From the NCBI GenBank assembly GCA_902779875.1, contig CACZCX010000007.1:1-50779 (forward strand): 50,779 bases of DNA, read 5' to 3'. The notes beneath the pieces were generated by a model. That model worked only from the letters and a program-made list of their open reading frames with translations. It was not told the origin of the DNA and ran no database searches. The number at the start of each line of letters is the position of its first letter. Positions within the stretch are counted from its first letter, which is position 1. A program made the position numbers and the translations under genes. The DNA comes from an uncultured Bacteroidales bacterium (lineage in GTDB: Bacteria; Bacteroidota; Bacteroidia; Bacteroidales; Bacteroidaceae). This document shows positions 16,424 through 49,292 of the stretch, one piece after another.

Positions 16424-16550
16424 GAGCCAAAGGGGACGGTTCTGTTTGGCCCCTTTTTTACATACGCTCACTTAGGAACAAAAAGCGTCTGGATATTACT
16501 CCAGACGCTTTTTTTCAAAAGGGGCCAAACAGAACCGTCCCCTTTGGCTC
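16424..16550. repeat. GGGACGGTTCY inverted-repeat element A
   Basis: Perfect 34-base inverted repeat: left arm 16424-16457, right arm 16517-16550, with a 59-base spacer. The core GGGACGGTTCT is at 16433-16443 and its complement at 16531-16541. Each arm can also fold alone (GCCAAA at 16426-16431 with TTTGGC at 16445-16450), exposing the core in the loop. The spacer carries the terminator at 16480-16515. The element begins 4 bases after the esterase stop codon. Related elements are at 40970-41026 and 49173-49292. Confidence 0.9.
16480..16515 (+). terminator. Intrinsic terminator of the esterase operon, nested in element A
   Basis: A 14-bp perfect stem (16480-16493 with 16500-16513; core AGCGTCTGGA/TCCAGACGCT), a 6-base loop, and a run of T through 16515 on the + strand. 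A-rich flanks on the other side could also let it act on the minus strand. Confidence 0.85.
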
Positions 16551-16569
16551 TACTTAAGCAAAAAAGCAG

Positions 16570-16577
16570 TATCTTCG
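16570..16577 (+). promoter_or_regulatory. -7 box of tRNA-Arg
   Basis: TATCTTCG is one base from TAnnTTTG and lies 26 bases upstream of the tRNA 5' end. The same variant precedes the exporter gene at 37885. Confidence 0.5.
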
Positions 16578-16603
16578 CGGCCGGATAGGATTTATTCCTG
16601 TTT

Positions 16604-16675
16604 GCCTCTGTAGTTCAATGGATAGAACGGAAGTTTCCTAAACTTTAAATCCGAGTTCGATTCTCGGCGGGGGTA
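16604..16675 (+). tRNA. tRNA-Arg (anticodon CCU)
   Basis: A full cloverleaf can be drawn. The acceptor stem is 16604-16610 with 16668-16674, all paired but with three G-U pairs. The D-stem is GTTC/GAAC, the anticodon stem is 16630-16634 with 16642-16646, the loop is TTCCTAA with anticodon CCT at 16637-16639, and the T-arm is CCGAG-TTCGATT-CTCGG. The discriminator is A16675; the CCA end is not encoded. It reads AGG codons. A terminator follows at once. Confidence 0.92.
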
Positions 16676-16681
16676 CCTATT

Positions 16682-16712
16682 AGCAGTCATTCTCAAGATG
16701 GCTGCTTTTTTT
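16682..16712 (+). terminator. Intrinsic terminator of tRNA-Arg
   Basis: A 9-bp stem (AGCAGTCAT at 16682-16690 with ATGGCTGCT at 16698-16706, one G-U pair), a 7-base loop, and a run of T to 16712. Confidence 0.8.
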
Positions 16713-16722
16713 CTATATGAGG

Positions 16723-16745
16723 TCGGATTTAAAGTGTAGGAAACT
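16723..16745 (-). repeat. Inverted partial copy of tRNA-Arg (anticodon arm to T-stem)
   Basis: On the minus strand these 23 bases match tRNA positions 16632-16654 at 22 of 23 sites; the only difference is at 16736, in the copy of the anticodon loop. The rest of the tRNA is absent, so this is a fragment and not a second tRNA. It may be an attachment-site remnant. Confidence 0.75.
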
Positions 16746-16757
16746 AAACCTTTTTTT

Positions 16758-16792
16758 ATTTCGCTAACGCGAAAGGCGGCCTTCCAGGCCGC
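16758..16792. repeat. Two adjacent GC-rich palindromes
   Basis: TTTCGC-TAAC-GCGAAA (16759-16774) is followed directly by GCGGCCT-TCC-AGGCCGC (16776-16792). They lie in the gene-free stretch between the tRNA-Arg fragment and korB, followed by a low-complexity CTCGCT-rich segment. No open frame with coding character is seen. They could belong to a small repeat family or a structured RNA; nothing more can be said from this one copy. Confidence 0.5.
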
Positions 16793-16839
16793 TCTCGCTC
16801 GCATACTCGCTTCGCCCCAATACTTTAGTACGTGCGTAA

Positions 16840-16875
16840 TAAAAAAAGGATGACCATCGAGGTCATCCTTTTTTG
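16840..16875 (-). terminator. Intrinsic terminator of the korAB operon, possibly bidirectional
   Basis: The stem AAGGATGACC / GGTCATCCTT around the loop ATCGA is flanked by A on the left and T on the right, so it can end transcription on either strand. It follows the korB stop by about 20 bases. The stem shares GGATGACC with the two LRR-region terminators. Confidence 0.8.
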
Positions 16876-16893
16876 GTGGGGATTGCTTCGCAA

Positions 16894-17898
16894 TTATTTT
16901 ACTTCCCAGATGTCGTTGGTCTCAAGGAGCTCGGCAAAGTTGTGATACTTCTTGGCGGCCTTTACCTCCTCAATCTGAGCGGTTACTGCATCGTCATAGG
17001 TGGGAGCCTCAACGTCACGGATGACGCCGAGTGCAACGGGGAATCCGTCACCGTCACCCATCAGGGCGAGCTTGAGCTGCAGGGTGTTGTCCTGGCAGTG
17101 TGCATCGTGTACAAGGATATCCTTGAGGGTGATGCCGTTCTCGCCAATCTTTACGACCTTAAGACCGAATCCCTCCTGCATGATGCCGAACTCGTTGTTC
17201 TCGCCGAATACCAGGGGCTCGCCGTGCTTAACGTAGATGGCGTTCTTGGCGCGGCCCTCCTTGTTGTAAACTGCATCGTGAGTACCGTTGTTGAATATCA
17301 CGCAGTTCTGAAGGATCTCGCAGACCGATGCACCCTTGTGGTTGTAGGCGGCCTTGAGGATATCGACTGTACCGGGAGCATCGGTGGCGACGGCGCGGGC
17401 AAAGAAATGACCGCGTGCACCAAAGCAGAGCTCTGCGGGACGGAAAGGATCCTCAACAGTACCGTAAGGGCTTGACTTACTTACAAAGCCACGGGGTGAG
17501 GTAGGTGAGTACTGACCCTTGGTAAGACCGTAGATACGGTTGTTCAGCAGGATCATGTTCAGATTGATGTTACGGCGGTTGGCGTGGATGAAGTGGTTAC
17601 CACCGATAGCCAGACCGTCACCGTCACCTGAAATCTGCCATACGGTCAGGTCAGGGTTGGCAACCTTACAACCGGTAGCGATAGCAGCGGCACGACCGTG
17701 TATGGTGTTCATACCGTATGTAGCCATGTAGTGAGGCAGACGGCTTGAGCAACCGATACCTGAGATGACTGCGGTATTGTATGGAGCTACTCCGATTTCG
17801 GCCATAGCCTTGTGCAGTGAAGCCAGGAAGAAGTGGTCACCGCATCCGGGGCACCAACGAGGCTGTCCCTTCTTGAAATCTTGTGCTGTATATTCCAT
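16894..17898 (-). CDS. korB: 2-oxoglutarate:ferredoxin oxidoreductase, beta subunit
   Basis: The 334-residue TPP-binding subunit of a cytosolic 2-oxoacid:ferredoxin oxidoreductase. With KorA it interconverts 2-oxoglutarate plus CoA with succinyl-CoA, CO2 and reduced ferredoxin. Visible motifs are WCPGCGD at residues 16-22 and the TPP-binding stretch GDGDGLAIGG followed by NNRIYGLTKGQYSPTS, typical of this class. It lies 12 bases after korA on the same strand, and a terminator follows. The direction in vivo (oxidative, or reductive in a partial reductive TCA branch) is not shown by the sequence. No separate small ferredoxin subunit gene is adjacent. Confidence 0.93.
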   Translation of the reverse strand: MEYTAQDFKKGQPRWCPGCGDHFFLASLHKAMAEIGVAPYNTAVISGIGCSSRLPHYMATYGMNTIHGRAAAIATGCKVANPDLTVWQISGDGDGLAIGGNHFIHANRRNINLNMILLNNRIYGLTKGQYSPTSPRGFVSKSSPYGTVEDPFRPAELCFGARGHFFARAVATDAPGTVDILKAAYNHKGASVCEILQNCVIFNNGTHDAVYNKEGRAKNAIYVKHGEPLVFGENNEFGIMQEGFGLKVVKIGENGITLKDILVHDAHCQDNTLQLKLALMGDGDGFPVALGVIRDVEAPTYDDAVTAQIEEVKAAKKYHNFAELLETNDIWEVK

Positions 17899-17910
17899 AG
17901 TGCTGTGTTT

Positions 17911-19746: not shown

Positions 19747-19789
19747 AACTTCTGTATAGCTTTTGTTGATTCTGCATAGAAAAACGGTG

Positions 19790-19797
19790 CAAAATTA
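19790..19797 (-). promoter_or_regulatory. -7 box of korAB
   Basis: On the minus strand TAATTTTG matches TAnnTTTG, about 43 bases before the korA ATG; a TTG about 22 bases upstream may be the -33 element. Confidence 0.6.
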
Positions 19798-19928
19798 CAA
19801 GAATATTCCTTTCGATATTCAATTGTTATTCATGAATTAATTGATTTTAGCATATTATATAAGATATAAGGTGCATTTTGGAATGCATGCAGAATAATAT
19901 ACAAAAAATATGCAGGTATAAAAGAAAT

Positions 19929-19965
19929 AACGGAACCGGTTTTATACCGATTCCGCTGTTATATG
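19929..19965 (-). terminator. Probable terminator of the Sel1/TonB-C gene
   Basis: An imperfect inverted repeat (CGGAACCGGT / ACCGATTCCG with flanking AAC/GTT pairs) is followed on the minus strand by a T-rich stretch. It lies 30 bases after the stop codon. Confidence 0.55.
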
Positions 19966-19995
19966 CAAAATGTGTCTGTCTCTATGCAGATTCTC

Positions 19996-21192
19996 TCAGA
20001 ATCCGAATCCGCCTCCGAATCCGCCCATTCCGTTGCTTGAGCCAAAATTGACTGTTGCGGAGTGCTGGGCCTGGACTTCAACCCCGTTCTCCTGGGCCGG
20101 TATCCAGTCAGGCATGACCATGATGGTACGCAGAGCCTCCTTGTCCATGATGAATACATCGGAACCGGTAGTGACGGAGGGGTTGATTACAGCTCCGTCA
20201 GTATCGATGGTGAACGATACCGTAACGCGGCCGGTGACCTTCTGCTTCTGGAGGTTCTCAGGATAGTTGGTGTTGTTGTTTATGAATGACTGCATCTTCA
20301 TGGCTCCGCCGGGGAATATGGCCTGCGGGCGTGCGGGACCGGCTGGCTGTGCTCCACCCTGACGACCTCCGCCGGGGAATCCGCCACCGGGGAACCTGCC
20401 GCCTCCGAATCCGGCGGGAGCCTGCTTGGACTCCTCAATCTCCTGTTCGGTGGGCATGGGATCCAGTCTCATGGGCACACCCATGCTGAGTACTGCCTGA
20501 AGCGAGTCTATGTAATCGGTGAATGTGGGGAACTCGAGTTGTGACTTGAGCAGCGTGCGGTACCATTTCTTGGCCTCACGGAGTGATGTGGTATCGCTGT
20601 AAATACGCCACTTGCCCAGGTTCATGGTACCGATGAGAGCCTGTGCCTTGAGCACCTGCTCATCCTTGTTGTTTACATCGGCCACCTTGGGGTAGGTCTC
20701 AAGCAGCTTGATACCTGCATCGATATAGGTCTCCTGCTGCTTGTATCTTCCGTACTCGTAGGTGAAGCTGGCCAACGCAATGATTGATGCGTTGTCACCG
20801 TTCCTGATGGCTTTTTTGAACCATTTGGAGCCCGATGTAAAGAATGCGTCGGTGGTTGGTTTCTGAGCCCAGAAACGGAAGAAATAGGAACCCAGATTAA
20901 ATTGAGCGGGTACATATTCCTGCTTGGCTGCATTGTCCAGCAGATTCAGTCCCATCTCCATATCATACTTGACATTCTTGCCTGAGAGACACTCCATACC
21001 CAGAAGATGTATAGACTCGACATCGCCTTTTATGACACCCTTCTTGTATCGGTCTATCAACTGTTGCATTGCGGGGTTGGTGAGCTCTATCTTGTCCATC
21101 TCAGCCTTGATGGAATCTGTGTTTGCCTTTTGCGCAAACATCGGCATGAAACATAATGCCGATACGACTACTGAAATCAGTCTCTTTATCAT
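19996..21192 (-). CDS. Secreted Sel1-like repeat protein with C-terminal TonB domain
   Basis: A 398-residue protein with a cleavable-type signal peptide (ending MFA-Q), not the uncleaved membrane anchor of classical TonB. Residues of about 40-190 carry Sel1/TPR-like helical repeats (LGMECLSGKN.., NLGSYFFRFW, GSKWFKKAIRNGDNAS). A Gly/Pro/Gln-rich linker (about 260-295) follows. Residues of about 305-390 match a TonB C-terminal domain: NYPENLQKQKVTGRVTVSF, then GAVINPSVTTGSD and a closing strand. The last residues are again glycine-rich (GGFGGGFGF). Similar TonB-C domains in Bacteroidetes often end periplasmic proteins and need not energise transport. The exact job is unknown; partners could be Sel1- or envelope-signalling related. 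It appears monocistronic. Confidence 0.78.
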   Translation of the reverse strand: MIKRLISVVVSALCFMPMFAQKANTDSIKAEMDKIELTNPAMQQLIDRYKKGVIKGDVESIHLLGMECLSGKNVKYDMEMGLNLLDNAAKQEYVPAQFNLGSYFFRFWAQKPTTDAFFTSGSKWFKKAIRNGDNASIIALASFTYEYGRYKQQETYIDAGIKLLETYPKVADVNNKDEQVLKAQALIGTMNLGKWRIYSDTTSLREAKKWYRTLLKSQLEFPTFTDYIDSLQAVLSMGVPMRLDPMPTEQEIEESKQAPAGFGGGRFPGGGFPGGGRQGGAQPAGPARPQAIFPGGAMKMQSFINNNTNYPENLQKQKVTGRVTVSFTIDTDGAVINPSVTTGSDVFIMDKEALRTIMVMPDWIPAQENGVEVQAQHSATVNFGSSNGMGGFGGGFGF

Positions 21193-21257
21193 TTGACTAG
21201 TGATTAGGTTACCGCAAATATCGTGGTTTTTTACGGATATGTAAAAATATCTTTAAC

Positions 21258-21296
21258 CAAAAAAATAACCGGAGCCCTTTGCAGGACCCCGGTTAT
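21258..21296 (-). terminator. Intrinsic terminator of secDF
   Basis: An 8-bp stem (ATAACCGG at 21265-21272 with CCGGTTAT at 21289-21296) is followed on the minus strand by a T run (complement of 21258-21265), just after the secDF stop. Confidence 0.8.
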
Positions 21297-21314
21297 GGGA
21301 TTATCTACGATCTC

Positions 21315-24287: not shown

Positions 24288-24357
24288 AATTTTATTTAGT
24301 TATTAATATTTTGTGCGCGCGGCGTGTTAAAAACGTGTACGTAAAATTTCAAAGGTG

Positions 24358-24365
24358 CAAATATA
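24358..24365 (-). promoter_or_regulatory. -7 box of secDF
   Basis: On the minus strand TATATTTG matches TAnnTTTG, in the gap shared with the divergent GH2 gene. No clear -33 element. Confidence 0.55.
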
Positions 24366-24396
24366 GGTAAATTTTTGGTCTGCCCTACTGTCCTAA

Positions 24397-24404
24397 TATC
24401 TTTT
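24397..24404 (+). promoter_or_regulatory. Possible -7 box of the GH2 gene
   Basis: TATCTTTT lies 19 bases after a TTTTTG (24372-24377), giving near-consensus spacing although the last base is not G. An alternative is TATTTTCG at 24409-24416, without a -33 partner. Confidence 0.35.
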
Positions 24405-24436
24405 CTTGTATTTTCGCGCAATAACCATTGGCTTAG

Positions 24437-27664
<3,228 letters not shown>

Positions 27665-27668
27665 GCAG

Positions 27669-30236: not shown

Positions 30237-32066
30237 ATGAAAATAGAGACTTTGGTAGCAGAGAAGACCGTTCTGGCCATAAAGGCACTTTACGGTCAGG
30301 AGATAGAGGCCTCATCGGTCCAGGTGCAGAAGACTAAGCGTGAATTCGAGGGTCATCTCACTATTGTGGTGTTCCCTTACCTCAAGATGTCCCGCAAGGG
30401 TCCCGAGCAGACGGCCGGCGAGATAGGAACATGGCTTAGGGACAAAGTTGACGAGATAAGTTCATACAATGTCATCAAGGGTTTCCTGAACCTGACCATC
30501 TCAACGACAGCATGGGTCGATATGCTCAACGGTATAAACAATGATCCTGAGTTCGGCTTCCGCAAGGCTGCCGCTGACTCCCCGCTGGTCATGATTGAGT
30601 ATTCCAGCCCCAACACCAACAAGCCCCTCCATCTTGGACATGTGCGTAACAACCTGCTTGGCGGCGCACTCTCCAATATCATGGCTGCCAACGGCTACAA
30701 GGTGGTCAAGACCAATATAGTCAACGACCGCGGCATACATATATGCAAGTCCATGCTGGCATGGCTCAAGTGGGGTAACGGCGCAACACCCGAATCCACC
30801 GGTAAAAAGGGCGATCACCTTATCGGTGACTACTATGTTGAGTTCGATAAGCACTTCCGCGCCGAGGTCAAGAGCCTGCTTCCGGCCAATTATGCGGAGC
30901 TTGACGAGAAGGCTCAGGAGGAGGCCAAGGCCAAGGCTGAGAAGGAGTCACCTCTCATGCAGGAGGCTCACGCCATGCTGGTCAAGTGGGAGGCCGGTGA
31001 CCCCGAGGTACGTGCCCTTTGGGAGCGTATGAACAACTGGGTATATGCCGGTTTTGACGAGACATACCGTCGTCTGGGCGTAAGCTTTGACAAGATATAC
31101 TATGAGTCACAGACCTATCTTGAGGGTAAGAAAACCGTGATGGAGGGTCTTGAGAAAGGCCTGTTCTTCCGTAAGGAGGACGGCTCCGTATGGGCTGACC
31201 TGACCGAGAACGGACTGGACCAGAAACTGCTTCTGCGCAGTGACGGTACATCGGTCTATATGACTCAGGATATAGGTACCGCTCAGCTCCGTTTCCGTGA
31301 TTTCCCTATTGACCGTATGATTTACGTGGTCGGAAACGAGCAGAACTACCACTTCCAAGTTCTCTCCATACTGCTTGACCGTCTCGGTTTCAAGTGGGGC
31401 AAGGATCTGGTACACTTCTCTTACGGAATGGTGGAGCTCCCCGAGGGCAAGATGAAGAGCCGCGAGGGTACCGTTGTCGATGCCGACGACCTTATGGACG
31501 AGATGATCGATACCGCTCGCGCCACATCGGCCGAGCTGGGCAAGCTTGACGGCCTGAGCAAGGAGGAGACCGATGAGATCATGCGCGTAGTAGGTCTGGG
31601 CGCCCTCAAGTATTTTATCCTTAAGGTCGATGCCCGCAAGAACATGACATTCAATCCTAAGGAATCAATCGATTTCAACGGCAATACAGGTCCTTTCATC
31701 CAGTACACCTACGCACGTATCCGCTCGATCATGCGTAAGGCTGCCGATGAGGGAATCAAGCTCGATACACGTCTCTACTCTGATGACAACTCTCAGATAT
31801 CGGAGAAAGAGATAGGACTCATCCAGATGCTCAACGGTTTCCAGGATGTGGTACGTCAGGCAGCCGATGACTACAACCCGTCAGTCATTGCAAACTACTG
31901 CTACGACCTGGCCAAGGAGTTCAACCAGTTCTACCATGATTTCAGCATCATGCACGAACCTAGCCGCGTTCTAAAGATGTTCCGTCTGGTTCTGGCCCAG
32001 AACGTCGGAAAGATCCTCAAACTCGGCACCGGCCTGTTGGGCATCGAACTCCCGGAGAGGATGTAA
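30237..32066 (+). CDS. argS: Arginyl-tRNA synthetase
   Basis: A 609-residue class I aminoacyl-tRNA synthetase that charges tRNA-Arg. The N-terminal tRNA-recognition domain (about 1-110) is followed by the catalytic fold with the HIGH-type HLGHVRNN at 132-139 and the second signature KMKSREG at 405-411, then the helical anticodon-binding domain ending ELPERM. An insertion rich in Lys/Glu/Ala lies at about 220-245. The gene is 1 base from the RNase H gene and heads a three-gene + strand unit. Its cognate tRNA-Arg(CCU) is about 13.5 kb away with no linkage implied. Confidence 0.97.
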   Translation: MKIETLVAEKTVLAIKALYGQEIEASSVQVQKTKREFEGHLTIVVFPYLKMSRKGPEQTAGEIGTWLRDKVDEISSYNVIKGFLNLTISTTAWVDMLNGINNDPEFGFRKAAADSPLVMIEYSSPNTNKPLHLGHVRNNLLGGALSNIMAANGYKVVKTNIVNDRGIHICKSMLAWLKWGNGATPESTGKKGDHLIGDYYVEFDKHFRAEVKSLLPANYAELDEKAQEEAKAKAEKESPLMQEAHAMLVKWEAGDPEVRALWERMNNWVYAGFDETYRRLGVSFDKIYYESQTYLEGKKTVMEGLEKGLFFRKEDGSVWADLTENGLDQKLLLRSDGTSVYMTQDIGTAQLRFRDFPIDRMIYVVGNEQNYHFQVLSILLDRLGFKWGKDLVHFSYGMVELPEGKMKSREGTVVDADDLMDEMIDTARATSAELGKLDGLSKEETDEIMRVVGLGALKYFILKVDARKNMTFNPKESIDFNGNTGPFIQYTYARIRSIMRKAADEGIKLDTRLYSDDNSQISEKEIGLIQMLNGFQDVVRQAADDYNPSVIANYCYDLAKEFNQFYHDFSIMHEPSRVLKMFRLVLAQNVGKILKLGTGLLGIELPERM

Positions 32067-35519: not shown

Positions 35520-35521
35520 AT

Positions 35522-37836: not shown

Positions 37837-37862
37837 GTGCTGAAAACTTGTTAACAGGTGCA

Positions 37863-37870
37863 CAAAGATA
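37863..37870 (-). promoter_or_regulatory. -7 box of the barrel/PAP2/acyltransferase operon
   Basis: On the minus strand TATCTTTG matches TAnnTTTG, 26 bases before the chosen ATG. It faces the exporter promoter 15 bases away. Confidence 0.65.
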
Positions 37871-37884
37871 CCTAATAAAATTCG

Positions 37885-37892
37885 TATCTTCG
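37885..37892 (+). promoter_or_regulatory. -7 box of the MsbA-like exporter gene
   Basis: TATCTTCG, one base from TAnnTTTG, lies 25 bases before the ATG. The same variant is used at the tRNA-Arg gene. Confidence 0.5.
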
Positions 37893-37917
37893 CGAATCAA
37901 ATCAATGCATTCGCTTC

Positions 37918-39759: not shown

Positions 39760-39774
39760 CACACAATACAACAC

Positions 39775-40959
39775 ATGGTTAAAATCGGAACACCCCTTAC
39801 CAAAGTTGCCAAGAAGGCATTGCTTTGCGGTTCTGGCGAACTTGGTAAAGAAGTTGCAATCGAATTGCAGCGCTTTGGAGTCGAGGTTGTAGCTCTCGAC
39901 AGGTATGAGAACGCTCCTGCTATGCAGGTCGCTCACCGTAGTTATGTACTCTCCATGCTTGACGGCGCACGTCTGCGTGAGATTATTGAGAAGGAAAAAC
40001 CGGATATGATCATTCCGGAGGTTGAAGCTATCGCTACTCCCGAGCTGATCAAGCTCGAGAAGGAGGGTTATAACGTCATCCCCACAGCTAACGCCACATT
40101 CCTTACTATGAACAGAAAGGGTATACGCCAGCTCGCTCATGAGAAACTCGGCCTGCCCACTTCAAACTACCGTTTCGCTGCAACCCGTGAGGAGTTCGAC
40201 GCCGCCATCAAGGAGATTGGCACTCCCTGCGTTGTAAAGCCTATCATGAGTTCGTCAGGTCACGGTCAGAGTGTATGCAAGACTCCTGCCGATGCCGATA
40301 ACTCATGGAAGATTGCCCAGGAGGGCGGTCGTGCCGGAGGCGGTGAGGTGATAGTAGAGGGCTTTGTCAAGTTCGACTATGAGATTACGCTTCTTACCGT
40401 ACGTCACTCAGGCGGAACCACATTCCTCAACCCCATCGGCCATCATCAGGTTGACGGTGACTACCGTGAGTCATGGCAGGCCCAGCCCATGAGCGACAAG
40501 GCTCTTGCTCAGGCTCAGGATATAGCCAAGAAGATTACCGATGCCCTGGGCGGTTACGGAATATTCGGTGTGGAGATGTTCATATGCGGTGACAACGTGC
40601 TGTTTAGCGAGGTTTCACCCCGTCCGCATGACACCGGTATGGTTACTATGATTTCACAGGACCTCTCAGAGTTCGCTCTGCACGCACGTGCCGTACTCGG
40701 CCTGCCTATACCCAAGATCAATTTCTTTGGTCCGAGCGCATCAAAAGCCATCGTCGTTGAGGGTGACACCGAGATGATAGAGTTTGAGAATGTTGACGAG
40801 ATTCTCTCCGAGCCCGATGTTCAGGTACGTTTCTTTGGTAAGCCCTGGATCAAGGGACACCGCAGAATGGGCGTTATCCTGGCTCGCGCCGAGAGCGTTG
40901 AGAAGGCTCTTGAGAAAGTAGAGCGCGCCTACTCCAAACTCAAGGTAAAAGTATATTGA
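39775..40959 (+). CDS. purT: Formate-dependent phosphoribosylglycinamide formyltransferase
   Basis: A 394-residue cytosolic ATP-grasp enzyme of purine synthesis that formylates GAR using formate and ATP in place of formyl-tetrahydrofolate. Visible are the N-terminal dinucleotide-like [18 protein letters not shown], the [10 protein letters not shown] motif, the ATP-grasp loop [12 protein letters not shown] and the metal-binding region FGVEMF...[15 protein letters not shown]. Length and start match the family. It lies 15 bases downstream of the ABC exporter and 10 bases before an inverted repeat. Confidence 0.96.
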
Positions 40960-40969
40960 TTTAACATCT

Positions 40970-41026
40970 GGGACGGTTCCTAATGTGTTAGTTTTGCGGC
41001 AAAACTAACACATTAGGAACCGTCCC
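40970..41026. repeat. GGGACGGTTCY inverted-repeat element B
   Basis: A perfect palindrome of two 28-base arms around a single G (40998). The core GGGACGGTTCC is at 40970-40980 and its complement at 41016-41026. It fills the 80-base gap between convergent purT and the LtaS-like gene. The rest of the arms (TAATGTGTTAG...) is unrelated to elements A and C. Confidence 0.9.
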
Positions 41027-41039
41027 CATTGTTGCAGTT

Positions 41040-42983
41040 TTACTTTGAAGTCATGAATATGAGGTACTGCTGGATGAGAGCTTTCAGGTGCCGGAGCATC
41101 TCTTGCTCTATCTGAGGCTGCGTACCTTTGAGATTCTGTTTCAGGGTTGGGTCGTCACGGTAGGCGAACAACCCTGTTTCGTTTTCACCGTCAAACTGGA
41201 TTACCAGGTCACCTTTATAGTAGGAGTAGAGTCCGTTCTGCAGGTTGGCGGCCCAGGTCTCTCCGTCAGTGACGTGGAACAGGTCCTGGCCAAACCCGTA
41301 GTAAGGCTTGTCATAACCCAGATATCCGAGTATGGAGGGCGTAATATCAGACTGCTGTGCTATGCAGGGACGGCGGCCTGAAAGACTGTCCTGCGGGCAG
41401 TAGAAAATGATAGGCACGCGGAACTTTCCGTAGTCCGACTGATACTGCGGGTGCTCCGAGAGGTTGGTGTGGTCGGCCGTCAGCACAAAGAGCGTTTTGT
41501 CAAACCACGGCTGTTGGGATGCCTTGTCAAAGAACAGCTTAAGCGCATGGTCCGAGTAGCGGATTCCGCGATAGATCGGCAGATTTCCCTCCTGCGGATA
41601 GATATCCTGATAACGTTCCGGTACATTATACGGATGGTGTGATGAGGCGGTAAAGGCCGATACCACGAACGGCTCCCTGAATGTGCTCATCTCGTCACAC
41701 ATGTACTGCAGGAACTCCTCATCCCAGATGGCCCAGAAACCGTCAAACATATCGCTACCGCCGTACTCGGGCTTCTTTACGAAATCCTCAAGAGCGTAGT
41801 AATCATTATAACCGATGACTTTGGAGAACGACTCGAATCCCATGGAGCCGTGGTCGGCGCCGTGGAAGAAAGCCGAGTAATAGCCCTTGGTGACCAGTTC
41901 CTTGGCCAGGCCCGATATCTCCTTTGACATGATGGTGGGAGTGAGGAACAGATGATCCTTGAGCATGGGTATGCCTGAAAGGACCGATGGCATGGCGTCA
42001 ATGCTCTTGCGTCCGTTGGCCAGCGATGTCTCAAAGGTGAGCGCGTTGTTTATGAGAGAGTCCATGAACGGAGCGCAGTCATGTATGTCATCCACCTCCG
42101 GATTCATGGCTCCGATATACTCCGATCCAAAGCTCTCAAGAATGAGAACCACCACGTTCATAGGGCGGAAAACGGCGGTGGAATCGGGATTTATTACAGG
42201 AGAGTATACAGACTCGAGCTCATCATTGTCAAAGTATGAAGGGACCTTCATGTCCTCATTGCCCATGGTACGTATCACACAGAACGGAGTGTTCAGTATG
42301 GCGGCCGCCTGAGCCGGAGTGTTCACGTAACGGTAGGCGTTGCTCATGGTGATGGGCCTTATGTTATGGCTCAATCCACCGCGTATTCCGGCTACTATGC
42401 CCACGCCTGTAAAGGCAATCAGGATGAGGCGGACTATGTAATAGATGTAAGTCTTACAGTACTTGAGAGCATCGGGCTTACCTATGCATATGCACAGCAA
42501 CCACACCATCAGGATGTAGATGAGCACCAGATACCAGTTGTCCAGGAGAGCCTTGAATATGATTCCGGTTATCTGTCCGCCGCCCTCATTGCTGAATTCA
42601 GACAGCACCTGGAGCGTGCTGCGGCATCCGGTATAAGGGAAATAGACCGTGTCGACCAGGTTGGCCATGATACCGGCCGATGTCACCACCACCAGCAGGA
42701 CCTTGGTCAGGGTGTAATACCACTCTTTCTCCTTGAAATGGAACGGGAACATCATGAGCACCATGTAGAGTGCACACAGATACATGATGCCGGCGGTATC
42801 GAACACCAGAGCTCCCTTGGTCATGGGCCAGATCATGCCGCCCATATCGGCCATAAGTGAGTCCCTGTTGTATGCTATGAATATGAGATGACAGATGAAA
42901 AAGGCCACATAGACCACAGCCAGATTCCTCACCATCACTATGAAAGGAGTTTTCAGAATCGGGCTTTTGGTTCTCTCGGACAT
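41040..42983 (-). CDS. Second LtaS-like sulfatase-superfamily membrane protein
   Basis: A 647-residue inner-membrane protein with about five membrane segments (to about residue 205) and a periplasmic alkaline-phosphatase-superfamily domain. It has Glu283 in VVLILESFGSE, the nucleophile position Ser327 in NGRKSIDAMPS, and metal-site residues in LTADHTNLSEHP. It is a distant paralogue of the 32716-34563 protein. Substrate is unknown; phosphoglycerol or phosphoethanolamine transfer to an envelope glycan or lipid is the family expectation. It is the last gene of the kdsD-pfkB unit (2-base gap), which suggests a link with Kdo or LPS decoration. Confidence 0.85.
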   Translation of the reverse strand: MSERTKSPILKTPFIVMVRNLAVVYVAFFICHLIFIAYNRDSLMADMGGMIWPMTKGALVFDTAGIMYLCALYMVLMMFPFHFKEKEWYYTLTKVLLVVVTSAGIMANLVDTVYFPYTGCRSTLQVLSEFSNEGGGQITGIIFKALLDNWYLVLIYILMVWLLCICIGKPDALKYCKTYIYYIVRLILIAFTGVGIVAGIRGGLSHNIRPITMSNAYRYVNTPAQAAAILNTPFCVIRTMGNEDMKVPSYFDNDELESVYSPVINPDSTAVFRPMNVVVLILESFGSEYIGAMNPEVDDIHDCAPFMDSLINNALTFETSLANGRKSIDAMPSVLSGIPMLKDHLFLTPTIMSKEISGLAKELVTKGYYSAFFHGADHGSMGFESFSKVIGYNDYYALEDFVKKPEYGGSDMFDGFWAIWDEEFLQYMCDEMSTFREPFVVSAFTASSHHPYNVPERYQDIYPQEGNLPIYRGIRYSDHALKLFFDKASQQPWFDKTLFVLTADHTNLSEHPQYQSDYGKFRVPIIFYCPQDSLSGRRPCIAQQSDITPSILGYLGYDKPYYGFGQDLFHVTDGETWAANLQNGLYSYYKGDLVIQFDGENETGLFAYRDDPTLKQNLKGTQPQIEQEMLRHLKALIQQYLIFMTSK

Positions 42984-42985
42984 TG

Positions 42986-43915
42986 TCAGATGTTCAGTTT
43001 GTGTCTGTTTGCGAATTCCGGACTCACGTAGTTCGATGTACTCATGCAGGCTTCTGTGCCGTACTCGATTCCGAACTCAATGAGCCTGCTCCATTGCTCC
43101 TCACTCAGACCGTTCAGGTTCTCCCTGAGTATGTTCTCGCGGATCAGTCCGTATATGATGCCGGCGTTGAAGTTGTCACCTGCGCCGATGGTGCTGACGG
43201 GAACTATGGTGCGTGACTTGAAGTTGTGTTTCTTGCCGTGGTCGATGACCAGTACGCCGTCCTTTCCGCGGGTGCAGATGAGTCTGGGGCAGTACTTTGA
43301 GGTCTCCTCATAGATCCTGTCGCAGTCATCGTGACCGAACAGGTTTATGAAATCCTCGTGGCTGCCGCGAATTATATCGGCCAGGGCAAAATTCTCCCTG
43401 AATGTCTCTTTGAGGGCGTTGACCTCATGGGCGTGGTTGTCACGGAAGTTGAGGTCGTAGTACAGGATGGCTCCCTGGTCCTTGGCATACTGAAGGAAAG
43501 GCTTGACCTTGTCCCTGAGTACGGTATTGAGAGCAAAATAGGCGCCAAAGGCCATGATGTCATTCTCCTTTATGAGAGGCATCTCGTGAAAGTCCAGCCT
43601 GTTGTTGGGATAGTCTTTGTAGAAACTGTATTTGGCGTCGTTGTTCTTGTCCAGATATGCCAGTGAAATGGCGGTTTTCTTGCCTTCGTAGCATGACACG
43701 TAATCGGTGTTGATGCCGTTTTCCTGCATGAACCCGAGTATGTTCTGACCCACCAGGTCGGAGCCTATCTCAGTCACGAAAGTGCACTGAAGGCCGGTCC
43801 TTCCGAGTGATATCAGTCCGTTGAATACGGAGCCGCCGGGCACACCTGCCACAGGCTGACCGTCGCGGAACAAGATGTCGTATATGGTCTCGCCAATACC
43901 GAAAATCTTTCTCAT
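42986..43915 (-). CDS. PfkB-family carbohydrate kinase (fructokinase-like)
   Basis: A 309-residue ribokinase-fold sugar kinase. The N-terminal GGSVFNGLISLGRTG is the first PfkB signature, and the C-terminal STIGAGDNFNAGIIYG has the catalytic Asp and anion hole. It resembles fructokinases, but sugar specificity is not secure. It overlaps kdsD by 4 bases (ATGA) and precedes an LtaS-like gene by 2 bases, so the three proteins are made together; a kinase acting on a sugar linked to the pentose-phosphate/Kdo branch would fit. Confidence 0.88.
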   Translation of the reverse strand: MRKIFGIGETIYDILFRDGQPVAGVPGGSVFNGLISLGRTGLQCTFVTEIGSDLVGQNILGFMQENGINTDYVSCYEGKKTAISLAYLDKNNDAKYSFYKDYPNNRLDFHEMPLIKENDIMAFGAYFALNTVLRDKVKPFLQYAKDQGAILYYDLNFRDNHAHEVNALKETFRENFALADIIRGSHEDFINLFGHDDCDRIYEETSKYCPRLICTRGKDGVLVIDHGKKHNFKSRTIVPVSTIGAGDNFNAGIIYGLIRENILRENLNGLSEEQWSRLIEFGIEYGTEACMSTSNYVSPEFANRHKLNI

Positions 43916-44511
43916 AACAGCTTTTTGGAACGCATTCCAAGATATCCACCGTGATGGCGCTTGTTATACTCCTCGACGGTGAACCCGATCTTCTTCATCG
44001 TCTCAACCACCAGGGCATCGCCGATCACGTTCATGACCGTGGTGCTGGTTGTGGGCGCCAATCCCAGCGCGCACACCTCATCGGGCTTGCCGGTGCTCAG
44101 TACCACATCGGCCTGACGGGCCAGAGGGCTCTGCGTGTTGCCGGTAAGGACAATGAATTTGAGAGTGGGATCGAGTGTCAGGCTGAGCTCCATGAGTTCC
44201 AGGACCTCTCTTGTCTTGCCTGAATTTGATACTAGCAGGAACAGGTCGTTTTTCTGTAATACTCCCAAGTCACCATGCTGAGCTTCACTGGGGTGAAGGA
44301 ATATGGAGGGAGTACCTGTGGAACTGAAGGTCGTGGCCATGTTCATGGCAATCTGTCCTGCCTTGCCCATGCCGCTGGTTATAAGCTTTCCTTTCAGTTC
44401 ATGCACGTGCCGTACTATCAGGTTTACGGCTTTTTCATATTCATCGCCTATGGGGATGTTCAGTATGGCCTGAGCCTCCCGGCTGACGATGTCTTTAATT
44501 GATTCAATCAT
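43912..44511 (-). CDS. kdsD: SIS-domain arabinose-5-phosphate isomerase without CBS domains
   Basis: A 199-residue sugar isomerase, predicted to convert ribulose-5-P to arabinose-5-P, the first step to Kdo for LPS. Features of the KdsD/KpsF/GutQ family are TSGMGKAGQIAMNMATTFSS, FLHPSEAQHGDLGVL, the SNSGKTREVLEL block and the LAPTTSTTVMNVIGDAL segment. The two C-terminal CBS domains of the E. coli enzyme (328 residues) are missing; CBS-less versions are known from Bacteroides. It heads the operon with a PfkB kinase and an LtaS-like enzyme, with its own promoter at 44549-44556. Confidence 0.83.
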   Translation of the reverse strand: MIESIKDIVSREAQAILNIPIGDEYEKAVNLIVRHVHELKGKLITSGMGKAGQIAMNMATTFSSTGTPSIFLHPSEAQHGDLGVLQKNDLFLLVSNSGKTREVLELMELSLTLDPTLKFIVLTGNTQSPLARQADVVLSTGKPDEVCALGLAPTTSTTVMNVIGDALVVETMKKIGFTVEEYNKRHHGGYLGMRSKKLL

Positions 44512-44548
44512 TGCGCTAATTCAATGAAGATTCCTTTTATTCGACCGG

Positions 44549-44556
44549 CAAATATA
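44549..44556 (-). promoter_or_regulatory. Promoter (-7 box) of the kdsD operon
   Basis: On the minus strand TATATTTG matches TAnnTTTG and a TTTG -33 element sits about 20 bases upstream: the best complete Bacteroidetes promoter in the window. Confidence 0.7.
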
Positions 44557-44609
44557 TGCATTATTGATGAACGACCCAAATTTAGGGGGTGTAGTTGCCC
44601 CTGGGATGT

Positions 44610-44648
44610 AAAAAATATGGAACGCGCACGACGTGTACCATATTTTTT
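44610..44648. promoter_or_regulatory. Inverted repeat just upstream of the pnp -7 box
   Basis: Perfect 11-base arms (AAAAAATATGG at 44610-44620, CCATATTTTTT at 44638-44648) flank 17 bases that include CACGACGTG. It covers the place where a -33 element is expected and ends 2 bases before the -7 box, so it could be an operator. A cruciform or weak terminator for incoming transcripts is an alternative. Confidence 0.4.
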
Positions 44649-44650
44649 GT

Positions 44651-44658
44651 TACCTTTG
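44651..44658 (+). promoter_or_regulatory. -7 box of pnp
   Basis: TACCTTTG matches TAnnTTTG, 55 bases before the ATG. No -33 match; the region is occupied by an inverted repeat. Confidence 0.6.
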
Positions 44659-44713
44659 CCGCAATTTACTCTATAAGAGGAATTTTTTATAAGATGTTTT
44701 TAATATTTAGAAG

Positions 44714-46990
44714 ATGAAAATTGTAACAAAAGAGATCCAGCTTCCTGATGGAAGAACCATCAAACTGGAGACCGGGAAACTGGCCAAGCAAGCCGATGGA
44801 GCCGTGATGCTGACATGTGGCAAAACTATGCTCCTGGCCACTGTATGTGCCGCTAAAGATGCAGTTCCCGGTACTGATTTCATGCCGCTGCAGGTTGAGT
44901 ACAGAGAAAAGTATGCGTCAATAGGACGCTATCCCGGCGGTTTTACCAAGCGTGAGGGTCGTCCCTCTGATTATGAGATTCTTACATGCCGTCTGGTCGA
45001 CCGTGCACTGCGTCCTTTGTTTCCGGACAATTACCATGCTGAAGTTTATGTAAACATCATACTGTTCTCCGCTGACGGCGAGCAGATGCCTGATGCTCTT
45101 GCCGGTCTTGCAGCATCAGCAGCCCTGGCAGTATCGGACATACCTTTCCAGGGTCCGATATCCGAGGTCCGCGTAGCCCGCATAAACGGCGAGTATGTGA
45201 TCAATCCTACATTCAAGCAGCTTGAGCAGGCTGATATGGACGTGATGGTAGCCGCAACTTATGACAACATCATGATGGTTGAGGGTGAGATGAAGGAGGT
45301 TAGCGAGGCTGACCTGCTCGGTGCCATGAAGGCTGCTCACGACGAGATCAAGAAGCACTGCAAGGCTCAGATGGAGCTGACCGAGGAGGTTGGTAAGACC
45401 GTTAAGCGCGAGTACTGCCACGAGGTCAACGACGAGGAGCTGCGTCAGGCTGTCAAGGATGCCTGCTACCAGAAGTCATATGACCTGGCTGCACAGGGTA
45501 ACACCGACAAGCATTCACGTGAGGCCAACTTTGAGGCTGTACGTGACGAGTTCAAGGAGGCTTATCATGCAGCACACGCTGATATGACAGCCGATGAGCT
45601 TGCTGAGAAGGATGCACTGATTGACCGTTACTACCATGACGTAGAGCGTGACGCAATGCGTCGCTGCGTGCTCGATGAGGGCAAGCGTCTGGACGGTCGT
45701 AAGACTACCGATATACGTCCCATCTGGTGCGAGGTAGGTTACCTGCCCGGACCTCACGGATCATCAATATTCACCCGTGGTGAGACACAGGCTCTCTGCT
45801 CTGTAACACTGGGTACCAAGGATGACGAGAAGATGGTTGACGATGTGCTGGATCAGCACGACGAGCGTTTCCTGCTCCACTACAACTTCCCCCCGTTCTG
45901 CACAGGTGAGGCCAAGGCTCAGCGTAGCACCGGCCGTCGTGAGATTGGTCACGGACATCTGGCATGGCGTGCCCTGAAGGGTCAGATTCCTGAGGATTAT
46001 CCCTACTGCGTTCGCGTAGTATCAGATATCCTGGAGTCTAACGGTTCATCTTCAATGGCTACCGTCTGCGCAGGTACACTTGCTCTGATGGATGCCGGCG
46101 TCAAGATCAAGAACCCCGTATCAGGTATCGCAATGGGTCTTATCAAGAACCCGGGTGAGGACAAGTACGCTGTTCTTTCCGATATCCTTGGCGATGAGGA
46201 CCACTTGGGTGATATGGACTTCAAGACCACCGGTACAGTAAAGGGTCTGACCGCAACACAGATGGATATCAAGTGCGACGGTCTGTCATATGAGATTCTT
46301 GAGAAGGCTCTGGCTCAGGCCAAGGCCGGACGTGAGTATATTCTTGGTAAGATCACCGAGACCATCGCTGAGCCTCGTGCTGACCTCAAGCCTCATGCAC
46401 CCCGCATTGAGACCCTGACTATACCTAAGGAGTTCATCGGCGCCGTAATTGGCCCGGGCGGAAAGATCATCCAGGGTATGCAGGAGGAGACCGGCGCAAG
46501 CATCAGCATCGATGAGGTTGACGGTGTAGGCAAGATTGAGGTTGCCGCCTCTAACCGCGACAGCATCGAGGCAGCTCTGGCCAAGATCCGTGCTATCGTA
46601 GCCATTCCTGAGGTAGGTGAGGTTTACGAGGGTAAGGTTCGCTCAGTAATGCCTTACGGTCTGTTCGTAGAGTTCCTGCCCGGTAAGGACGGTCTGCTCC
46701 ACATCTCAGAGATTGACTGGAAGCGTTACGAGACCATTGAGGAGACCGGCATCAAGGAGGGTGACAAGATTCAGGTCAAGCTGATTGACATCGATCCCAA
46801 GACCGGTAAGTTCAAGCTGTCACGCAGAGCTCTCACTCCCAAACCCGAGGGTTATGAGGAGCGTCCCGCCCGTGCACCCCGTCAGGACCGTGGCGAGCGT
46901 CAGGACAGAGGTCCCCGTCAGGACCGCGGTCCCCGTCAGCATCGTGACAACAACGAAAACAATGTAGAAAACAACAATGAAGAGAAGTAA
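44714..46990 (+). CDS. pnp: Polyribonucleotide nucleotidyltransferase (PNPase)
   Basis: A 758-residue 3'-5' phosphorolytic exoribonuclease of mRNA decay. Two RNase PH domains (about 5-230 and 315-545; [23 protein letters not shown] is split here as [12 protein letters not shown] and DYEILTCR, and the second core has [11 protein letters not shown]) flank a helical linker. A KH domain (about 570-635; [17 protein letters not shown]) and an S1 domain (about 640-710; [16 protein letters not shown]) follow. The C-terminal tail of about 45 residues has three RQDRG-type repeats and then an Asn/Glu-rich end, longer than in E. coli (711 residues). The lipoprotein gene starts within the last 14 bases. 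Confidence 0.97.
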
Positions 46991-48146
46991 TTTAGCATTA
47001 CTCCTTCTGACCGCATTAACAGTAGCCTGTCAACCCAAAGTTGACAGGTTTACTTTAAATGGCCAGATAGTGGAGGCTGACGGCAAGACACTCTATCTTG
47101 ACCGCCTGTCATTGGACAAAGTAGAGGTAATAGACTCTGTAACTCTGAATGCTGAAGGTAAGTTCAGTTTTACCCCTGCAGCTCCCGAGGACTGTTTTGA
47201 ATTCTATCGCCTGCGTATAGACAACAAGGTGGTGAACCTGTCTATTGACTCTACCGAGACAGTGACTGTGACAGCCAGCCTTCCTGTAATGCAGATTGCT
47301 TATCTCGTTGAGGGTTCCGATAACTCCAGCAAGCTCAAGGAGCTGGTCATGCGCCAGATGGGGCTGCTTCAGGACCTGCGCCGTGTAAGTTCAAACTACC
47401 GCAGTCCTGATCCCACCATGCTCCAGCAGCAGGTTCAGGAACTGATTGATGTATTCAAGTCCGATGTGACCAATGAGTTCATCTTTCCCGATCCCTCATC
47501 ACCTTGTGCATACTACTCCCTGTTCCTGAGCATCAACGGCCAGATGCTGTTCAATCCTCAGGCAGACCGTCAGGATGCCAAGTGTTTTGCCGCTGTAGCC
47601 ACACAGCTCGATATGCTTTATCCCGATGCCGTCCGCACCGCTCACCTGCACAACTTAGCTCTCAAGGGTATGGTCAAGACATCACCTTCCAAGAACAATG
47701 TCACCACCCAGGAGATACAGCAGTTTGAAAGCCTGATTGAGGAGGCCGGACTCATAGAGATAGAGCTGCCTGACTACAAGGGCCAGATGCGCAAGCTCTC
47801 TGACCTCAAGGGCCAGGTGGTGCTGCTTGACTTCACCGCATTCAAGACTGACTATTCAGCCAACTACAACCTGTTCCTGAGAACACTTTACAACAAGTAT
47901 GCAGAGCAGGGATTCACGATCTATCAGGTATCGGTCGATGCCGATGAGAGTCTGTGGATGAATACCGCAGTCAACCTGCCTTGGGTATGCGTGCATGACG
48001 AGGAGAGTCTCAACTCCATGTACCTCAAGAGTTATAACGTAGCCACACTTCCTACCGTATTCCTCATAGACCGTGACGGCAATATCACGAACCGTCCGGA
48101 CAAGACCGAGGAACTTGACGGTATGATTGCCAAGCTACTGGAGTAA
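46977..48146 (+). CDS. Thioredoxin-fold lipoprotein lacking the CXXC motif
   Basis: A 389-residue predicted lipoprotein (lipobox LTVAC, Cys18). Residues of about 25-110 resemble the DUF4369 beta-domain found before thioredoxin domains in Bacteroidetes; about 125-250 is helical. Residues of about 255-389 have the TlpA/AhpC-like fold: [32 protein letters not shown], and the cis-Pro region [14 protein letters not shown]. At the place of the usual WCXXC the sequence reads FKTDYSANY with no cysteine, so it cannot be a standard disulfide enzyme and may act as a chaperone or binding protein. The ATG lies inside the end of pnp (14-base overlap, different frame), so translation may be coupled. Confidence 0.83.
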
Positions 48147-48191
48147 AAATTGATTTTTCGGCTTTTTGTTGGGATAGTCTGAAATAAAAAC

Positions 48192-48199
48192 TATCTTTG
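48192..48199 (+). promoter_or_regulatory. Promoter (-7 box) of greA
   Basis: TATCTTTG matches TAnnTTTG, and TTGTTG about 20 bases upstream (48166-48171) can serve as -33. Predicted start of transcription is near 48206, about 100 bases before the greA ATG. Confidence 0.65.
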
Positions 48200-48222
48200 C
48201 CAAAAGCGTGAAACATAAAAAT

Positions 48223-48262
48223 GGGTTCCAACAACTGAACTGGATTGTTGGAATTCTTTTTT
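48223..48262 (+). terminator. Terminator-like hairpin in the greA leader
   Basis: A 9-bp perfect stem (TTCCAACAA at 48226-48234, TTGTTGGAA at 48245-48253), extended by G-U/G-C pairs, with a 10-base loop and a T run at 48257-48262. It lies between the greA promoter and ORF, so it could act as an attenuator or produce a small leader RNA; ending read-through from the upstream lipoprotein gene is also possible. Confidence 0.65.
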
Positions 48263-48307
48263 ACTCATGTCAAAACCTAATTGTGTAACTGATAAAACAT
48301 TGATATT

Positions 48308-48772
48308 ATGGCATATATGTCAGAAGAGGGCTACAAGAAACTGGTAGCCGAACTACAGTATCTGGAGGGTGTACGCCGTCCGGAAATTATTCAACAGATT
48401 GCTGAGGCCCGTGATAAGGGTGACCTCTCCGAGAATGCAGAGTATGATGCAGCCAAGGAGGCTCAGGGTATGCTTGAAGCTAAGATCGCTACCCTCAAGT
48501 CACAGATTGCCGATGCCAAGATCATTGATGAGAAAAAGATCGATACCTCAACCGTCCAGATTCTCACCAAGGTTAAGCTGCGCAATACCAAGAATAACGC
48601 CACAATGGTTTATTCCATCGTTCCTGAGAGCGAGGCTGACCTCAAGTCAGGTAAGATATCAAGCAGCACACCTATCGCCAAGGGACTGCTTGGCCACAAG
48701 GTAGGTGAGACCGTTGAGATTACCATCCCCAGCGGCAAGATAGGTTTTGAGATCCTTGAGATATCTCTCTAA
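48308..48772 (+). CDS. greA: Transcription elongation factor GreA
   Basis: A 154-residue protein that enters the secondary channel of RNA polymerase and triggers cleavage of backtracked RNA. The N-terminal coiled coil carries the tip acidic motif in ARDKGDLSENAEYDAAKE (Asp/Glu of DLSENAEYDAA), followed by the C-terminal FKBP-like domain with SSSTPIAKGLLGHKVGE. Length is standard (E. coli 158). It has its own promoter and a long leader with a terminator-like hairpin. The HIT gene follows after 11 bases. Confidence 0.96.
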   Translation: MAYMSEEGYKKLVAELQYLEGVRRPEIIQQIAEARDKGDLSENAEYDAAKEAQGMLEAKIATLKSQIADAKIIDEKKIDTSTVQILTKVKLRNTKNNATMVYSIVPESEADLKSGKISSSTPIAKGLLGHKVGETVEITIPSGKIGFEILEISL

Positions 48773-48783
48773 TTCATACGGCA

Positions 48784-49173
48784 ATGACCATTTTCAGCAG
48801 AATCATAGCAGGTGAGATTCCTTGCTATAAGATAGCGGAGACAGAGAACTGCTTTGCTTTCCTGGATATCAATCCTCTGGTAAAGGGTCACGTGCTGTGC
48901 ATTCCCAAGCGTGAGGTTGACTATCTGTTTGACCTGACTGACCAGGAGCTTTGTGACCTGCAGCTCTTTGCCAAGAAGATTGCCACAGCTCAAAAGAAGG
49001 TATTCAACTGCATCAAGGTAGGTGAGGCTGTCCTGGGTCTGGAAGTTCCGCATGCTCACATTCACCTCATTCCCATGCAGAGTGAGAAAGACATGCTGTT
49101 CAGCAATCCCAAACTCAAACTCACTCCCGCTGAATTCGAGGAGATTGCGGCCTCCATCCGAGCCGCGCTGTAA
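48784..49173 (+). CDS. HIT-family nucleotide-binding protein
   Basis: A 129-residue cytosolic protein of the histidine-triad superfamily, Hint branch. It begins IFSRIIAGEIPCYKI and has the triad in PHAHIHLIP near residue 90. Family members hydrolyse nucleoside phosphoramidates or aminoacyl-adenylates; the physiological substrate is unclear. It is likely co-transcribed with greA. Its stop codon shares its last base with the start of repeat element C. Confidence 0.93.
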   Translation: MTIFSRIIAGEIPCYKIAETENCFAFLDINPLVKGHVLCIPKREVDYLFDLTDQELCDLQLFAKKIATAQKKVFNCIKVGEAVLGLEVPHAHIHLIPMQSEKDMLFSNPKLKLTPAEFEEIAASIRAAL

Positions 49174-49292
49174 GGGCGCAAAAGGGACGGTTCTATCTGT
49201 GCCCTTTTGAGTCAAACTGCTATTAGCATATAATTAGGGACGGTTCTAAAAGTGTCATAAGGGCACAGATAGAACCGTCCCTTTTGTGCCCT
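49173..49292. repeat. GGGACGGTTCY inverted-repeat element C, with an internal third core
   Basis: 34-base arms (49173-49206 and 49259-49292) match at 33 positions; the one difference (49178) still allows a G-U pair. Cores are at 49184-49194 and, inverted, at 49271-49281. A further direct core GGGACGGTTCT sits unpaired in the spacer at 49237-49247. Each arm also folds alone (GGGCGC/GTGCCC and GGGCAC/GTGCCC) with the core in the loop. It occupies the whole gap between the convergent HIT and beta-propeller genes. Confidence 0.9.

Follow-up and report, generated by a model that had tools for sequence, protein, structure and literature searches.

The 50,779-nucleotide (nt) contig of an uncultured Bacteroidales bacterium analysed here (CACZCX010000007.1; termed the window) carries three palindromic repeat elements built on the core GGGACGGTTCY, members of a family dispersed through the genome. 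We consider it probable, at about 80%, that these repeats are non-autonomous, hairpin-ended mobile elements of the kind associated with terminal inverted repeat-associated tyrosine transposases (TIRYT) or repetitive extragenic palindrome (REP)-associated tyrosine transposases (RAYT), recognized through their apical core and spread in trans. In the proposed mechanism, a single-tyrosine HuH transposase encoded on another contig, C19, would recognize folded single-stranded hairpins whose apex is GGGACGG-TTCY, and would mobilize in trans not only single units but also inverted pairs and longer composites. Copies would gather at gene ends either because selection removes other insertions or because the single strands exposed there are preferred. 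The sequences show a genome-wide family, a bias to gene 3′ ends, a pairing of core with gene, empty orthologous sites, core differences at one site and conserved composites; catalysis, the single-strand intermediate and termination activity are the parts of the scheme that we infer.

All seven cores reported in the window by an earlier, sequence-only reading are exact matches (16433+, 16531−, 40970+, 41016−, 49184+, 49237+ and 49271−). Allowing up to one mismatch, the window contains nine core matches, compared with a mean of 1.53 in shuffled windows, and none of 100 shuffles reached nine. The inverted arms of element 1 (16424–16457/16517–16550), element 2 (40963–40997/40999–41033) and element 3 (49173–49210/49255–49292) are 100%, 91% and 95% complementary, respectively. 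They begin 4, 3 and 0 nt downstream of the ends of the preceding stop codons (16419, 40959 and 49173), within the 0–10 bases past a + strand stop given by that reading. Elements 2 and 3 are flanked by convergent gene pairs, as it had also noted; element 1 likewise lies between convergent genes, with a tRNA-Arg(CCT) gene (16604–16677, +) separating it from the convergent gene. The genome to which the window belongs (the own genome: 2,136,222 bases in 74 contigs, 86.5% complete) contains 226 exact cores (115 + 111), against two (0 + 2) for the same pattern reversed, bearing out the genome-wide enrichment on which the sequence-only reading had staked the family. A chance origin of the cores was rejected on the shuffled-window counts and this reversed-pattern control. 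Sixteen genomes of the same order but from other families have 0–5 copies of the core each, like the reversed control.

Arrangement was examined in a sample of 29 stretches, around the first 100 core places and one transposase gene, plus the window, which together held 60 clusters and 107 exact cores. By strand order of the cores, the clusters comprised 32 ‘+−’, 11 ‘−’, five ‘+’, four ‘++’, four ‘−−’, two ‘++−’, one ‘−+’ and one ‘+−−’. Head-to-head pairs, the arrangement first described for the window, are therefore the commonest form, but other layouts exist too, including single units and tandem cores. Very compact pairs were seen in G041 and on two contigs of G022 (C79 and C89), with cores 20–21 nt apart compared with the usual 43–46 nt.

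A profile search of the own genome with PF01797 (Y1_Tnp) found two full-length RAYT-like genes. The first, on C19, encodes 286 amino acids (aa), matches Y1_Tnp at about 41.6–42.6 bits, above the cut-off, and has the window's core on both sides. Mobilization in trans by a RAYT had been proposed although no such gene lies in the window; this Y1/HuH gene on another contig, flanked by the same core, is of the expected type. A partial transposase gene at the end of contig C41 has the window's core on its readable side, and C27 carries a weaker, more distant relative. The second full-length gene, on C11, is flanked by a different core, GGGGTCGTTT, in TGACGCAAAGGGGTCGTTT palindromes. The sequence GGGGTCGTTTNG occurs only three times in the own genome, but genomes with a C11-type gene have more: 31 copies in G002, 19 in G012 and 12 in G017.

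This association of gene and core extends through the genus. The flanks were read for 25 of 30 RAYT loci fetched, the other five being weak, partial matches. Core-bearing palindromes lie on both sides of the gene in 23 of the 25 and on one side in two (L085, L091), and five genes (L063, L086, L072, L087 and L076) are flanked by two core variants. Six or more core types were found in the genus. Mapped onto a protein tree of the 25 loci, core labels require eight changes, against a minimum of six and a mean of 15.6 for shuffled labels, and no shuffle of 200 was as low; GTCGTTT forms one clade with support of 100/100 and GACGGTT needs four changes. Outside the genus, two RAYT-like genes (L182 and L183; 36–37% identity) in metagenome-assembled genomes titled Bacillota/Negativicutes are flanked, as read by eye, by a related core, GGGACGTTCC.

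The number of cores in a genome also follows its transposase type. Four cores were counted in 37 congeneric genomes, with labels set by eye from the gene flanks; genes of the GACAGAC and GACAGGT types lay outside the comparison. Median copy number with and without the cognate gene was 125.5 (n = 10) and 7 (n = 27) for GACGGTT (p = 8.7 × 10−5), 94 (n = 4) and 6 (n = 33) for GACAGTC (p = 0.0023), 54 (n = 8) and 0 (n = 29) for GTCAGRC (p = 1.3 × 10−5), and 15.5 (n = 4) and 1 (n = 33) for GTCGTTT (p = 0.0039); since the genomes are related, these p values are not independent-sample values. When core labels were shuffled within genomes, a match as strong arose in none of 20 000 trials. Across the genus copy number varies from 0 to 228, and the profile search of the 37 genomes gave strong RAYT matches in 22, weak matches only in four and none in 11.

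Comparison of orthologous sites, by eye, indicates where copies have come to lie. At the element-2 site, 27 relatives were available; three lacked one flank and 24 were compared. Five carry an element, one (G005) another insert and 18 none. The occupied sites differ in core: GGGACAGTCCC in G021, GGGTCAGACCC in G012, and GGGACGGTTC with other stems in G013, G007 and G011. In the element-free relatives the convergent stop codons lie close together or overlap, and in G012 the element provides the TAG stop of the convergent gene. At the element-3 site seven of 29 relatives have an element, with the cores GGGACGGTTC (G005, G021), GGGACAGTCCC (G049, G008), a one-base variant of GGGACAGTCCC (G020), GGGGACAGACC (G009) and GGGGACAGGCCCC (G015, at a contig end). 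The 33-kb block spanning the elements was also compared with six relatives, some of which gave no match at some gene ends. At gene end 16894(−), elements with three cores between them occur in G008, G021, G020 and G011; elements also occur at 32066 in G008, G005 and G021 and at 19996(−) in G011, and the ends at 40959 and 49173 are likewise occupied in relatives; where matches existed in the six, no element was seen at the other gene ends of the block. Two other kinds of sequence occupy these sites in some relatives. The element-2 site of G005 (L133) holds a further dispersed repeat, roughly CAGGAGAACTTTT(T)GGGGTATC...GATACC(C)AAAAGTTCT, which also adjoins some own-genome cores (L033, L039, L048). 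The element-3 site of three relatives (L157, L165, L181) is occupied by another insert, common to all three, that contains a GGCGTTCGAAA...TTTCGAACGCC hairpin.

These comparisons bear on the idea that the repeats are a vertically inherited, selected and non-mobile 3′-untranslated-region or terminator motif of the host. The strong 3′-end bias described below, the stable stems and the identical three-core layout of element 3 in G005 would all suit such a motif. However, a range of 0 to 228 copies within one genus does not, the cores flank the transposase genes themselves, and the empty orthologous sites and the different cores at one site largely refute the idea, to which we give almost no credence.

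Placement was assessed with our own simple gene caller for 61 elements, the 60 clusters and a copy of element 1 on contig C20. Of these, 54 are intergenic, four are intragenic and three, at stretch edges, were dropped; two of the four intragenic calls (L041, L049) resemble chance core matches in coding sequence. The intergenic elements occupy 29 tandem, 19 convergent and six divergent gaps. A core lies within 30 nt of the facing gene 3′ end in 56 of 67 cases, but of the facing 5′ end in only six of 41. Of the 29 elements in tandem gaps, 25 are within 30 nt past the stop codon, where 9.2 would be expected under even placement (0/20 000 simulations), and all 29 are closer to the stop than to the next start. 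The bias to the first bases past stop codons, claimed from three elements, thus holds across the sample. Convergent gaps contain more elements than their number would predict, 19 of the 54, although only 33 of the 198 gaps are convergent (p = 6 × 10−5); this denominator is biased because the stretches were chosen around elements. At eight of the 67 gene ends the stop codon lies at or past the core edge, so that the element supplies it, and the C-terminal tails of the C19 transposase and of a G008 transposase (L073) are read from a core-bearing unit. Copies persist almost only directly past stop codons at the ends of transcription units.

The hairpins themselves combine one core with three stem types, read by eye: AAAACTGCAACATTA-core-TAATGTTGCAGTTTT (A-type), GGAGCCAAAG-core-NTTTGGCTCCTTTTT (B-type) and GGGCACAAAA-core-ATCTGTGCCCTTTT (C-type). 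The fold of a single unit places CGG at the apex, enclosed by GGGA/TTCY; the A-type unit adjoining the transposase gene folds at −24.3 kcal/mol (z = −7.09). Stem pairing was tested at 12 positions in 106 distinct 43-mers, in which the core is invariant through pattern selection. Pairing was 0.81 in register, 0.34–0.53 when the arms were slid and 0.599 when right arms were re-dealt (largest of 500: 0.659). Since pairing is 81% in register compared with 60% re-dealt, the stem sequence varies with compensation. An invariant apical core upon variable, compensatory stems looks new. Each family keeps its core unchanged while the stem varies in this way, so the enzyme probably recognizes the apical core together with a stem whose sequence is free. 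Arms match more closely within pairs than between them (0.849 against 0.740; none of 5000 permutations as high), but the 17 B-type pairs taken separately differ only as 0.868 against 0.825, so that the matching is weak evidence for homogenization of arms. For 66 of 108 cores the best stem has a T-run of at least four at its 3′ foot, compared with 72 of 985 core-free intergenic windows.

Composites are longer forms, eight of them in the own genome, in which the units are spaced 95–112 nt apart with a hairpin bearing an A-run and a T-run between them. Element 1 is one of these, and matches C20:24407–24539 at 93% across the whole unit. Its interior (T1, AACAAAAAGCGTCTGGA...TCCAGACGCTTTTT with a conserved side arm) has eight alignable copies in five genomes, two each in G000, G017 and G008 and one each in G009 and G049, the own two being at different places. 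In L211 and L212 an A-T pair replaces G-C at an outer T1 stem pair. Within the fetched loci, which were fetched for likeness to element 1, the T1 pattern lies solely inside core pairs (7/7). A second set, T2, has seven alignable copies from G000, G008 and G011, an eighth row (L090_1399) lacking the hairpin, and three own composites (L042, L049, L055) have other hairpins with no T1 or T2 match by eye. Convergent gaps contain seven of the eight composites of the own genome but 12 of the remaining 46 elements (post hoc Fisher test, p = 0.0018). Composites in which two cores enclose a conserved hairpin resembling a bidirectional terminator look new; a literature search that covered few subscription papers returned none describing REP or TIR units that carry a terminator.

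The composites could have formed differently, as native terminators trapped between two separate insertions, one past each convergent stop. In convergent gaps units do lie directly past the stop codon of either gene, and the three own composites whose hairpins match neither T1 nor T2 by eye fit this origin. However, the T1 hairpin and arm align across genomes and at different own-genome places, which makes trapping unlikely in the T1 case, and T2 recurs in three genomes; as a general account we regard trapping as unlikely.

A more evenly balanced alternative, which we put slightly below even odds, is that the same mobile family is purely parasitic, its gene-end placement reflecting removal of harmful insertions and its hairpins bringing no benefit to transcription. 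Occupied sites differ between species, most relatives are element-free at the element-2 and element-3 sites, and inside operons of the 33-kb block the six relatives have no element at gene ends, except at 32066; furthermore, REPs lie near 3′ ends in many genomes without an agreed function, according to Di Nocera 2013 (PMC3733652). On the other hand, the conserved terminator-like hairpin of the T1 composites with its paired outer changes, the T-runs at stem feet and the concentration of composites in convergent gaps all weigh against it. Under the mechanism proposed above, gene ends would tolerate the copies because units contribute a stem flanked by an A-run and a T-run and sometimes a stop codon, and composites a separate bidirectional terminator-like hairpin. 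Of the three roles suggested by the sequence-only reading, two fit the data and are mutually compatible: that of a terminator and that of a parasite tolerating nothing but gene ends. We tentatively suggest, with rather less than even confidence, that a transposase family recognizing only the apex spreads units and composites that serve as replacement gene 3′ ends and bring a bidirectional terminator, sometimes with a stop codon and a C-terminal tail, and that the terminator is a conserved cargo between species-specific units whose core is exchanged as transposases diverge.

Several observations weigh against transposase-driven mobility as set out above. Four core-rich genomes lack a strong RAYT match: G007 (97 cores, 97% complete), G019 (62), G009 (57) and G051 (33). 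G049 has 122 cores, but its gene is flanked by another core, and around one G014 gene (L203, 253–1056) all six core patterns are absent. Gene loss or assembly gaps may account for the core-rich genomes without a gene. These genomes would also suit a different enzyme moving the repeats, with the RAYT genes mere passengers among them; since each gene type is flanked by its own core and core number tracks gene type within genomes, this seems very unlikely. The site orthologous to element 1 is uninformative because synteny breaks there, and mobility is inferred from comparison of genomes. Finally, a simple terminator scan of 40500–50779 found 11 sites against 7.3 expected and none at elements 2 and 3, so that plain units are only putative intrinsic terminators.

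The nearest known kind is TIRYT/TIRtron (PMC3733652), and not the GTAG REP of Escherichia coli and Pseudomonas, given the absence of GTAG. In the 106 43-mers, the 16 nt flanking the core on each side contain no conserved GTAG-like column; the lack of a GTAG-plus-hairpin signature noticed in the window is therefore general, and a canonical GTAG REP was rejected. The proposal of a REP/bacterial interspersed mosaic element (BIME)-like, RAYT-mobilized family stands as regards palindromes, high copy number and a flanked cognate gene, but must be shifted towards TIRYT. TIRYT genes lie within inverted repeats sharing GGGGWSAS and are accompanied by moderately abundant, dispersed repeat families, often dimers (PMC3733652). 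The family described here likewise has a RAYT-like HuH gene within inverted repeats; GGGGWSAS fits the congener cores GGGGACAG and GGGGTCAG, and the window core GGGGACGG is off by one base. Unlike those moderately abundant families, it has its 226 cores in 2.1 Mb, and the apical core with interchangeable stems, the terminator composites and the turnover of cores within a genus go beyond the TIRYT description in the available text. Overall it is a TIRYT-type hairpin family at high copy number, marked by an apical core, free stems, repeated gene-end occupation and terminator-carrying composites. As in GTAG REP, BIME and REPIN systems (PMC8266576, PMC6006769), the repeats are high-copy extragenic palindromes (54/61 elements intergenic) in head-to-head pairs at gene 3′ ends, the repeat flanks a cognate HuH gene, and repeat and enzyme change together; unlike in GTAG REP, there is no GTAG/GTGG at the stem foot, and the apex is conserved while the stems are free in sequence. 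Corneloup 2021 (PMC8266576) showed in vitro that TnpA_REP enzymes and REPs changed together, which backs the proposed mechanism by analogy only. The CGTC class of Di Nocera (PMC3733652) was not adopted, as CGTC in the reverse core lies at the apex and not at an unpaired end; that class, unlike the present family, is described without a bordering transposase. A search for the core string gave matches unrelated by title or abstract opening, as did one for GGGTCAGACCC.

The proteins mix the traits of two TnpA subclasses defined by Quentin 2018 (PMC6006769). The N-H-x-H and Y-x-x-x-N-P columns are present in 16 of 16 aligned proteins, as is an FQ motif; HuH-Y spacing is 59 in the C19 protein and lengths are 263–286 aa, and like FQ both of these are 2.1-like. 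With Y...NP in 16/16, IS200/IS605 class 1 (Y---Q motif) was rejected. Most TIRYT were placed in subclass 2.1, which is likely to be the TIRYT set. FQ, a length of about 240–280 aa and a C-terminal HTH_23-like end are features of TnpA_Y1 subclass 2.1 (Bertels group 1); the C11 protein matches HTH_23 at 22.9 bits, below the 24.6 cut-off, and the C19 protein has no C-terminal match to the Bac_DnaA_C, HTH_23 or HTH_28 profiles. The Y motif here, YIHQNP, differs from the Y[IV]HLNP of 2.1, and REP-like flanking repeats are plain here, whereas automatic or manual search found none beside 2.1 genes (PMC6006769). Subclass 2.6 (Bertels group 5) occurs in Bacteroidetes and has atypical gene-adjacent structures with genomic copies and the Y motif YIH[QN]NP, all of which the present genes share. 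A filing under 2.6, with its WQ motif, median spacing of 82 and 179 aa, was nevertheless dropped when the alignment gave FQ, spacing 59 and greater length, although the Y motif still fits. The NCBIfam model NF047646 matched at 53 bits, against a cut-off of 80.

At least six pairings of HuH transposase and hairpin signal have arisen by joint divergence within one genus, which makes the rule for reading the apex directly testable. The empty orthologous sites, and those with different cores, document the places in nature where such repeats come to rest. Should the composites terminate transcription, mobile DNA would be a source of new terminators and gene ends, with a bearing on the evolution of bacterial 3′ ends.

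Within the window, the left unit of element 1 (+; B-type stem, core 16433–16443) folds with a CGG apex at −18.1 kcal/mol (z = −2.28), and the right unit (−; core 16531–16541) is its complement. Between them, at 16480–16515, lies the terminator-like hairpin (A-run, AGCGTCTGGA...TCCAGACGCT, T-run) conserved in the eight T1 copies; the stretch 16472–16520 folds at −22.7 kcal/mol (z = −7.7). Element 2 consists of a left unit (+; A-type stem, core 40970–40980) and a right unit (−; core 41016–41026), and 40960–41036 folds at −49.9 kcal/mol (z = −11.1). Element 3 has a left unit (+; C-type stem, core 49184–49194), a middle core with a reduced stem (49237–49247, +) and a right unit (−; core 49271–49281); the relative that keeps this three-core layout is G005 (L153). 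An Rfam scan of the window matched only the tRNA. A 23-nt stretch of its anticodon arm (16632–16654) is repeated, inverted and 96% complementary, 68 nt downstream at 16723–16745. Upstream of element 1, the region 12917–16419 contains repeats 1.2 kb apart, which suggest three esterase modules in tandem; the last of these matches Pfam Esterase.

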